Shown piece by piece: positions 8,065 to 10,430 of a DNA stretch of 64,000 nucleotides. Positions within the stretch are counted from its first letter, which is position 1. Each line of letters starts with the position of its first letter. The stretch is from NCBI RefSeq assembly GCF_016921195.1, contig NZ_JAFGYF010000003.1, positions 62,001-126,000 of the forward strand, read 5' to 3'. The notes below the pieces were generated by a model that was not told the DNA's origin, did not search any database, and was given only the letters and a program-made list of their open reading frames with translations. Both the position numbers and the translations under genes were made by a program. This stretch comes from Cellulosimicrobium cellulans. Lineage in GTDB: Bacteria; Actinomycetota; Actinomycetes; Actinomycetales; Cellulomonadaceae.

Positions 8065-8874
8065 TCAGACGCGCGCGTACTCCAGGTCGGTGATGACGCG
8101 GCCCGCCTTCTCGCCCTTGCGCTCGAACCCGGTGAGCACGCGCCCCGCGAAGCGCGGCGCGACGCCCCCCGGGCCGTGCACGTTGCGCAACCCCGGCGCG
8201 GCGTCGAGCACGTCGATCATCTGCTCGGCGTACTCGGCCCAGTCCGTGGCGAGCCGCAGTCTGCCGCCGGGCCGACCGTCGTCGCCCTCCTCCGGCGACC
8301 GCAGGACGCGCTCGGCGAGCGCCGCGAACGACGGCGTCACGAGGCGGCGCTTGTGATGGCGGGACTTGTGCCACGGGTCCGGGAAGAACACCCACAGCTC
8401 GTCGACGCTCCCCGCGGGCAGCGCCGTCGCCAGCAGCTCGGCCGCGTTCGCCTGGACCAGACGCACGTTCGTCAGGTCGCGCTGCGACGCGCGCAGCACG
8501 GTCTGCGCGAGGCCCGGGGTGTAGACCTCGACGGCGAGGAAGTTGGTGTCCGGCTCGCGCTCGGCCGCCGCGACCACGGCCTCGCCCTGGCCGGACCCGA
8601 TCTCCACGACGAGGCGCGCGTGGCGACCGAACGTCCCCGCGACGTCGAGCACGAAGTCGGGGTCGACGGACGTGCGCGCGACGTCGCGCGGCACGTCGAC
8701 GACGTAGCGGTCCCGGTGGGCGTCCCACGCGCGCTGCTGGCGCGGCGCGAGGCGCCCGCTGCGCCGGACGAACGACACGGGCTGGGTCCGGTAGCGCGGT
8801 CGGTCGCCGCCGGGCGTCACGGACGGCGCGTCGGTCGCGTGGGCGTCGAGGGTCTCGGGGGTCGGCTCGGGCAC
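8065..8874 (-). CDS. trmB: tRNA (guanine-N7-)-methyltransferase
   Basis: This 269-residue SAM-dependent enzyme methylates G46 in the variable loop of tRNAs. The SAM-binding VEIGSGQGEA motif is near residues 89-98. The diagnostic TrmB signature FFPDPWHKSRHHKRRL is near 165-180, and TDWAEYAEQM follows in the C-terminal part. The first ~45 residues are a poorly conserved, disordered extension common in actinobacterial homologues. A strong hairpin upstream separates it from the trpB-like gene on the same strand. Confidence 0.93.
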   Translation of the reverse strand: MPEPTPETLDAHATDAPSVTPGGDRPRYRTQPVSFVRRSGRLAPRQQRAWDAHRDRYVVDVPRDVARTSVDPDFVLDVAGTFGRHARLVVEIGSGQGEAVVAAAEREPDTNFLAVEVYTPGLAQTVLRASQRDLTNVRLVQANAAELLATALPAGSVDELWVFFPDPWHKSRHHKRRLVTPSFAALAERVLRSPEEGDDGRPGGRLRLATDWAEYAEQMIDVLDAAPGLRNVHGPGGVAPRFAGRVLTGFERKGEKAGRVITDLEYARV

Positions 8875-8935: not shown

Positions 8936-10246
8936 TCAGACGTACGCCGCGTACGCGGGCAGGTCGAGGACGCCGTTCCCCGACAGCCCGAGCACGATCA
9001 CCTCGGGCTCGGTCGCCGCGCGCGCGTGCACGACCGCGGCCGCGACGGCGTGCGTCGACTCGGGCGCCGGGATGATGCCCTCGCTGCGCGCGAACAGCGT
9101 CCCGGCCGTGAACGCCTCGTCCTGGTCGACGGCGACCGCGTCCATGAGCCCGAGGTTCACCGCGTGCGACACCATCGGCGACATGCCGTGGTAGCGCAGG
9201 CCGCCTGCGTGGATCGCCGGCGGGACGAAGTCCTTGCCGAGCGTGTGCATCTTGAGCAGCGGCGTGAGGCCCGCGACGTCACCGAAGTCGTAGCGGTACT
9301 CGCCCTGCGTCAGCGACGGGCACGCGGCCGGCTCGCACGCGACGAGCCGCGTCGTCGTGCCCTCGCGCAGGTTGCGCCCCAGGAACGGGAACGTGAGGCC
9401 CGCGAGGTTGGACCCGCCGCCCGCGCACCCGAAGACGACGTCCGGCGCGCCCTCGCCCGCCTCGTCGAGTTGGACGAGCGCCTCCTGGCCGATGACGCTC
9501 TGGTGCAGCATGACGTGGTTGAGCACGCTCCCCAGCGCGTAGTGCGCCGCCGGGTCCTTGGCCGCCGTCTCCACCGCCTCGCTGATCGCCATGCCGAGCG
9601 AGCCCGTCGTCCCCGGGTCGGCGGCGAGCATCGCGCGACCTGCCTCGGTGAGGTCCGACGGCGACGGGTGGCAGATCCCGCCGTAGACCTCCATCTGCGC
9701 GCGGCGGTACGGCTTGGCGTCGTACGACGCACGCACCTGCCACACCTCGACGTCGAGCCCGAGCAGCGCACCCGCGAAGGACAGCGACGCGCCCCACTGG
9801 CCCGCGCCCGTCTCGGTCGTGAGCTTCGTCGTGCCCTCGATCGCGTTGTAGTACGCCTGCGCGACCGCGGTGTTCGGCTTGTGCGACCCGACCGGGCTCA
9901 CGCCCTCGTACTTGTAGTAGATCCGGGCCGGGGTGCCCAGGGCCCGCTCGAGGCGTCGCGCGCGCACGAGGGGCGACGGCCGCCAGAGCGCGTAGATCTC
10001 GCGGATCGTCTGCGGGATCTCGACGTAGCGCTCGGTCGTCACCTCCTGCTGGACGAGCGCGAGCGGGAACAGCGGCGCGAGGTCGTCGGGCGTGAGGGGC
10101 TCGCGCGTTCCGGGGTGCAGGTGCGGGGGCACGGGCTCCGGCAGGTCCGCGGCGAGGTTGTACCAGTGCGTCGGGACGGTCGAGGGCACCTCCGCACCGG
10201 TCGGCTCGAGGGACCGGACGGGGACGGGAGACTGCTGTGTCGTCAT
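8936..10246 (-). CDS. TrpB2-type tryptophan synthase beta chain-like protein
   Basis: This 436-residue PLP enzyme makes, or is related to those making, tryptophan from indole and serine. The N-terminal region and length fit the TrpB2 class rather than the classical ~400-residue TrpB1. PLP-binding Lys123 lies in [11 protein letters not shown], and the glycine-rich phosphate clamp [11 protein letters not shown] is near 265. No trpA or other trp gene is adjacent, as is usual for TrpB2. A GGAG site lies 8 nt upstream of the ATG. The upstream leader encodes a short peptide with two Trp codons and alternative hairpins, so expression is probably set by tryptophan. Confidence 0.88.
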
Positions 10247-10292
10247 TCTGGGGGCTCCAGCTCAGAGGGAACTCGGGGTTCTCGGGAGGGAG

Positions 10293-10387
10293 GGCCGCTG
10301 GGCCGACGACGCGTGCACCGGGGTCCCCGAGGCCGCCCACGTCGTCGGGGCACGGCCGGTTCAGGTCACCGGCCGTCAGGCGGCCGG
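10293..10387 (-). promoter_or_regulatory. Candidate trp attenuator: mutually exclusive leader hairpins
   Basis: Read on the minus strand, segment 1 (CCGGCCG, 10387-10381) can pair with segment 2 (CGGCCGG, 10375-10369). Segment 2 extended to 10376 can instead pair with segment 3 (CCGGCCGT, 10359-10352) over 8 bp. Segment 3 and the following CCGACGACG (10348-10340) can pair with CGTCGTCGG (10311-10303) and CGGCC (10297-10293). Segment 1 starts within the end of the leader peptide, right after its Trp codons. A stalled ribosome would block 1:2 and favour 2:3. No T run follows the 3:4 stem, so the mechanism (transcriptional or translational) is open. Confidence 0.6.
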
Positions 10388-10417
10388 CCACCAGAGGGTC
10401 ACGGACGGGTGCGTCAC
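10376..10417 (-). CDS. Trp-Trp leader peptide (13 aa) upstream of the trpB-like gene
   Basis: GTG at 10417-10415 opens a 13-codon frame, MTHPSVTLWWPAA, ending at TGA 10378-10376. Two consecutive TGG codons (10393-10388) lie near the end, as in known trp leader peptides. The start sits 7 nt after a -10-like TAGGGT, the spacing seen at several leaderless starts in this window, so no ribosome site is needed. The only downstream gene is the trpB-like enzyme. Known attenuators show the same plan; its use here is inferred. Confidence 0.65.
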   Translation of the reverse strand: MTHPSVTLWWPAA

Positions 10418-10424
10418 GTCGCCG

Positions 10425-10430
10425 ACCCTA
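10425..10430 (-). promoter_or_regulatory. -10 element TAGGGT for the trp leader transcript
   Basis: On the minus strand TAGGGT is followed after 7 nt by the GTG of the leader peptide. The same layout (TANNNT, 6-7 nt, start codon) occurs before several other genes here. No clear -35 was found. Confidence 0.45.

Follow-up and report, generated by a model that had tools for sequence, protein, structure and literature searches.

The analysed window, a stretch of 64,000 nt from Cellulosimicrobium cellulans, carries on its minus strand a gene (8936–10246 (−)) for a 436 aa TrpB-like PLP enzyme, trpB2. The gene product scores 695.6 bits against the NCBIfam model PRK12391 (cut-off 366) and 584.2 bits against TIGR01415 (cut-off 518.85), but 139.4 bits against the trpB1 model TIGR00263, which is below the cut-off of 392.45. 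The operon trpB of the same genome, used as a control, scores the opposite way. While trpB2 is located on contig C17, trpE, trpB1 and trpA are found on contig C12. As the ordinary trpB1 of the genome is on a different contig, close to trpA and trpE, the gene in the window is an additional, stand-alone trpB located outside the trp operon, in agreement with the original prediction of a stand-alone, trpB2-type gene. A Shine-Dalgarno (SD)-like GGAG precedes it at 10255–10258 (−), and a trmB gene (8065–8874 (−); TIGR00091, 132.6 bits, cut-off 112.65) begins 61 nt after it. In the window's genus and Oerskovia, a TrmB-like motif follows trpB2 at 16 of 17 loci; it does so at none of the 14 other loci checked, including three leader-bearing ones (two of a fourth genus and one of Sanguibacter). 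Given the short distance and the conserved gene order, a common transcript is possible, i.e., trpB2 and trmB may be transcribed together.

Upstream of trpB2, the −10-like TAGGGT, the 13-codon frame and the tandem TGG codons that had been predicted were all found at 10376–10430 (−). The box (10425–10430 (−)) ends 7 nt before the start codon, GTG and not ATG, of the frame VTHPSVTLWWPAA, which is closed by TGA (10376–10417 (−)) and is probably translated leaderless; the ATG of trpB2 follows 171 nt after the leader GTG. Codons 9 and 10 (10391–10393 and 10388–10390, together 10388–10393 (−)) both encode Trp. The RNA of this region could form three hairpins. Hairpin 1:2 (CCGGCCG/CGGCCGG; 10369–10387 (−)), identified by folding and alignment, holds the leader stop codon in its loop, and the antiterminator-like hairpin 2:3 (CGGCCGG/CCGGCCG; 10353–10375 (−)) comes from the computed fold. 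The terminator-like hairpin 3:4 (GGCC-GU bulge-GCCC ... GGGC-GGCC; 10331–10357 (−)), also found by folding and alignment, has no U-tract. Thus, all of the pairings originally proposed (1:2, 2:3 and 3:4) are present, but the stretch first described ran to 10293 and may have placed segment 4 differently. The 3:4 hairpin at 10331–10357 is the form common to three genera, and the segment 4 of the original prediction may represent a further element at 10293–10311, kept only in the window's genus. This element, CGTCGTCGGCCCAGCGGCC (10293–10311 (−)), is found after 3:4 in 10 out of 10 leaders of that genus despite a variable spacer behind it, and it can also pair with CCGACGACG (10340–10348). No Rfam family covers the window leader at gathering scores, and none matches the leaders of five loci at E-values up to 1.

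The distribution of the leader was surveyed upstream of every one of the 74 long trpB2 matches from 200 genomes of the family; the short partial matches G153, G135 and G114 were excluded. The leader is present at 21 of these loci. It precedes every trpB2 examined in the window's genus (10/10), in Oerskovia (7/7) and in Sanguibacter (2/2), as well as two of the four in a fourth genus (g25), where it has a single Trp codon. In the other 53 orthologs, the frame search found no such leader, and the model search gave no hit upstream of the gene at E-values up to 0.01; the sole hit below this value (L036; E-value, 0.0096) lies on the downstream side of the gene. Relatives lacking the short frame had been named beforehand as evidence against an attenuator: such relatives make up 53 of the 74 family orthologs, while the near relatives have kept the frame. 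Hence, the leader is characteristic of a few genera, through loss, gain or transfer. Short tandem-Trp frames of any kind are found within 400 nt of 1 of the 53 leader-less family orthologs (L033, with a frame of another form) and of 2 of 75 class orthologs. The L033 frame, which has 22 codons, four of them for Trp, was rejected as a leader, as it resembles the antisense strand of the beginning of a divergent gene.

Outside the family, 76 loci from 394 genomes of the class were collected, 75 of which were anchored (the upstream DNA of L241 and L270 is short). In the class loci, no similar trpB2 leader was found, the 75 anchored loci yielded two tandem-Trp frames of another form, and there was no model hit below an E-value of 0.1. 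Tandem-Trp frames occur at five of 80 named loci: three of them are Oerskovia and Sanguibacter leaders already counted above, and L068 and L099 have frames of another form. A model search of 297 genomes of the order returned two Oerskovia loci and two places inside coding frames whose products resemble acetyl-CoA synthetase and nucleoside-diphosphate kinase; this search missed the window's own element and so proves no absence. Seven of 17 genomes of the window's genus have no trpB2 match, two of the seven being less than 90% complete. In a TrpB2 protein tree of 50 rows, the leader-bearing proteins do not form one clade, so that both repeated loss and transfer are possible. In the same tree, TrpB2 of Pseudoclavibacter helvolus (L039), a member of another bacterial family, groups with the window's genus (support 99/94), which suggests acquisition by transfer; no frame with at least two Trp codons was found upstream of this trpB2.

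Every one of the 21 leader frames has 13 codons and a GTG start. Codon 10 encodes Trp in 21 of 21 leaders and codon 9 in 19, both fourth-genus leaders having Gly at this position, and the codons flanking Trp vary, with some of the changes being synonymous. The conservation of TGG codons expected of an attenuator is thus seen as a tandem in 19 of 19 leaders of three genera and as a single Trp codon in two more. A TANNNT box ends 6–7 nt before the GTG in all of the 21 leaders, the spacing required for a leaderless start, and none of them has GGAG, AGGA or GAGG just before the GTG. A transcription start further downstream would have spoken against the original prediction; no TANNNT box is found between the leader stop codon and the gene start (88–134 nt apart) in any of the 21 leaders.

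Comparative analysis of the stems was based in part on a covariance model built from five Oerskovia leaders and run over a search space of 175,394 bases. This model found the window element with 29.1 bits (E-value, 2.9 × 10−5), a Sanguibacter leader (E-value, 2.1 × 10−9) and a fourth-genus leader (E-value, 6.2 × 10−7). The best 13 rows, corresponding to 12 places because the window and L009 are the same DNA, are all trpB2 leaders, with 22.3–45.8 bits for leaders versus 17.8 bits for the best non-leader row. RNAalifold applied to the plain alignment proposed unrelated pairs and did not recover these hairpins; hairpin 1:2 of Oerskovia is one nucleotide off relative to the codons, and the alignment was therefore refitted with the covariance model. 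Pairs were counted on alignment A6 (21 rows, 14 distinct), which is itself fitted to the structure. In the 14 distinct rows, 98.0% of the cells are paired, versus 19–51% with the partners slid, and 6 out of 15 pairs show two-sided changes; none of the pair-count measures was matched by any of 500 shuffles. The control slid by +3 approaches the real pairs in some respects (5 two-sided pairs; score, 0.157 vs. 0.224 for the real pairs; 9 further pair types vs. 8), but only 51% of its cells are paired. In the 3:4 hairpin, 6 of the 8 pairs are invariant, and the stem changes go back to few events, namely differences between the window's genus and the others, those of the two fourth-genus leaders, and the deletion in L015. 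Compensatory changes in the stems, proposed as a check of the attenuator, are thus present in near relatives.

In most of the window's genus, each of segments 1 to 4 is GGCC; in Oerskovia and Sanguibacter, they are GACC, GGTC, GACC and GGTC, in this order. Such a change of four segments together between genera is demanded if one segment pairs alternately with two partners, and it is the most telling fact about the predicted RNA. The exceptions are L018, where segment 1 is GACC and segment 2 is GGCC, and L015, where segment 4 is GGAC. Single-sequence folds of six leaders gave z-scores of −0.75 to −3.22. In an Oerskovia leader (L021 2898–3001 (−)), codons 2–4 (ACCTGCT) are also complementary to AGCAGGT immediately downstream of 3:4, and in the minimum-energy fold this helix closes a three-way junction; the window leader forms a comparable outer helix from different letters.

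Folding of the leaders, another check proposed earlier, gave the mutually exclusive hairpins 1:2, 2:3 and 3:4. When the first 41 nt of the window leader are removed, the computed probability of hairpin 2:3 is 1.0. Removal of the stretch under a stalled ribosome exchanged 1:2 and 3:4 for 2:3, and removal of the stretch under a ribosome at the stop codon left 3:4 in place, in 17 out of 19 leaders of three genera; the two fourth-genus leaders could not be scored in this test. The two that failed are L018, which has an A–C mismatch in 1:2 and adopts 2:3 even when no ribosome is present, and L015, in which neither 1:2 nor 3:4 formed. By the thresholds set first, 1 of 21 leaders passed the switch test, as did 1, 1 and 0 of 1000 shuffles. 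After relaxation of the thresholds, 17 of 21 leaders passed, the fourth-genus leaders failing the 3:4 part, compared with 1, 2 and 2 of 1000 sequences obtained by dinucleotide shuffling of three leaders. This control is post hoc because the thresholds were relaxed after the first result.

The specificity of the element within genomes was examined with a pattern of the Trp codons and hairpin 1:2 up to its second arm, which the L015 deletion and the fourth-genus leaders do not fit. In 221 family genomes, the pattern has 26 matches, 18 of which are trpB2 leaders and 8 scattered places; the reversed control pattern has 14 matches in 13 genomes. In ten genomes, eight of them leader-bearing, the 1.5 kb before the trpE match, itself preceded by a frame that reads like hisI, contain no short tandem-Trp frame. 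The frame with two separated Trp codons considered as a trpE leader at L185 lies inside the hisI-like frame and was dismissed. Judged by the DNA nearby, it is thus the accessory trpB2 and not the trp operon that has the putative sensor.

The conserved peptide, its conserved Trp codons, the co-changing segments and the computed switch point to a ribosome-mediated tryptophan attenuator that would govern trpB2 and perhaps trmB. It is very probable that sensing of tRNA-Trp through the leader pairings controls trpB2, whichever of the off steps considered below applies. The transcript would probably start at or beside the leader GTG. When charged tRNA-Trp is ample, the ribosome would clear both UGG codons, reach the stop codon in the 1:2 loop and cover segment 2, so that 3:4 could form and expression would be lowered, most likely by premature end of transcription. 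When charged tRNA-Trp is scarce, the ribosome would stall at codon 9 or 10 and cover segment 1, segment 2 would pair with segment 3, and trpB2 would be expressed. The transcription start, the stalling, the off step and the response to tryptophan are parts of this model that we infer.

As for the off step, T runs downstream of 3:4 and before trpB2 reach a maximum of 2 nt in every one of the 21 leaders, and 3:4, lacking the classical U-tract, is no canonical intrinsic terminator. A U-less hairpin that ends transcription, with or without Rho, is our first choice, and a translational off step the second. It is possible, though we favor it less, that sensing is the same but termination is left to Rho, with translation or stalling setting the access of Rho and 3:4 alone ending nothing. 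This fits the missing U-tract in 21 of 21 leaders, the Rho suggested for the U-less cys leaders of Mycobacterium (PMC1262725) and the leaderless leader peptides without a typical terminator reported for Streptomyces lividans (PMC8079986), but by itself it leaves the conserved, co-changing 2:3 and 3:4 pairings unexplained. It is rather improbable that the same sensing acts on translation by masking the ribosome-binding site of trpB2 when the ribosome is not stalled. The missing U-tract would suit such a step as well, and in the window's genus, CGTCGTCGGCCCAGCGGCC (10293–10311) and the SD-bearing GAGCTGGAGCC, which can pair via CCAGC/GCTGG, are both present in 10 out of 10 leaders. However, no element of this type was seen in the Oerskovia, Sanguibacter or fourth-genus leaders, and the computed freedom of the SD is not consistently higher on stalling but changes inconsistently between the states, so that SD masking as a general switch is unsupported.

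The remaining explanations dispense with tRNA-Trp sensing. A re-initiation role has been proposed for leader peptides (PMC4833913), but it is very unlikely that the short frame works by re-initiation or translational coupling, as the leader stop codon lies 88–134 nt from the gene start, and Trp is kept at codon 10 in 21 of 21 leaders while adjacent codons vary. That the frame and the hairpins are chance features of a leader with 75% GC is hardly credible: GC-rich DNA forms hairpins readily, 3 of 200 shuffles fold as well as the whole window leader (z-score, −2.24), and the loose pattern GTG..TGGTGG..TGA has eight matches in the genome, one of them this leader, and three in the reversed control, but conservation across genera, the model hits, the co-changing segments and the rarity of tandem-Trp frames before other orthologs all argue against chance.

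According to the literature, Actinobacteria have trp attenuators in front of trp operons and of trpS (PMC1262725, PMC8079986, PMC5784534). Those described for Corynebacterium and Streptomyces likewise have a short leader, with a double or triple UGG, and their antiterminator and terminator share a complementary gGCC-rGCy-GGCC motif (PMC1262725). The GGCC segments of the window fit this motif, whereas the GACC/GGTC segments of Oerskovia and Sanguibacter differ from it. The described attenuators precede trp operons and trpS and have a poly-U, whereas the present one precedes a stand-alone trpB2 and has no U-tract. Trp leaders directly before a gene named trpB are described before trpB1EDGC and trpB2A of C. 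diphtheriae (PMC1262725), as is the trp leader MTNMNAHNWWWRA before trpB1 (PMC5784534), but these trpB genes head trp operons, unlike the trpB2 of the window. The trpB2A leader is a possible precedent, although the label trpB2 in C. diphtheriae may be mere numbering that does not imply the TrpB2 class. In S. lividans, transcripts of leader peptides start at the start codon, as proposed here, and the leuA, metN and thrS leaders have, like the window leader, no typical terminator (PMC8079986). These U-less leaders serve other amino acids, and the trpS leader of that species differs in gene and sequence. Among the matches listed from the open-access literature, there is no description of an attenuator before a stand-alone trpB2.

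The cellular role of stand-alone TrpB2 is debated: for the TrpB2 copy of Pyrococcus horikoshii, the source speaks of another selective function not yet identified (PMC1854888), and scavenging of indole has been speculated for TrpB2 (PMC11917138). We give about an even chance to a scheme in which tRNA-Trp is sensed at the accessory trpB2 instead of the trp operon, and tryptophan shortage induces an enzyme that turns indole into tryptophan, and perhaps TrmB too. The element resembles a textbook trp attenuator, but it guards an unusual gene and does so without the usual stop signal, and, supported by comparison, it would add to those of the Actinobacteria an attenuator that lacks a U-tract and is probably leaderless. 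A leader that senses tRNA-Trp would link trpB2 to the need for tryptophan, which is testable in culture, and, if true, would be regulatory evidence that stand-alone TrpB2 serves tryptophan supply, e.g., by catching free indole.
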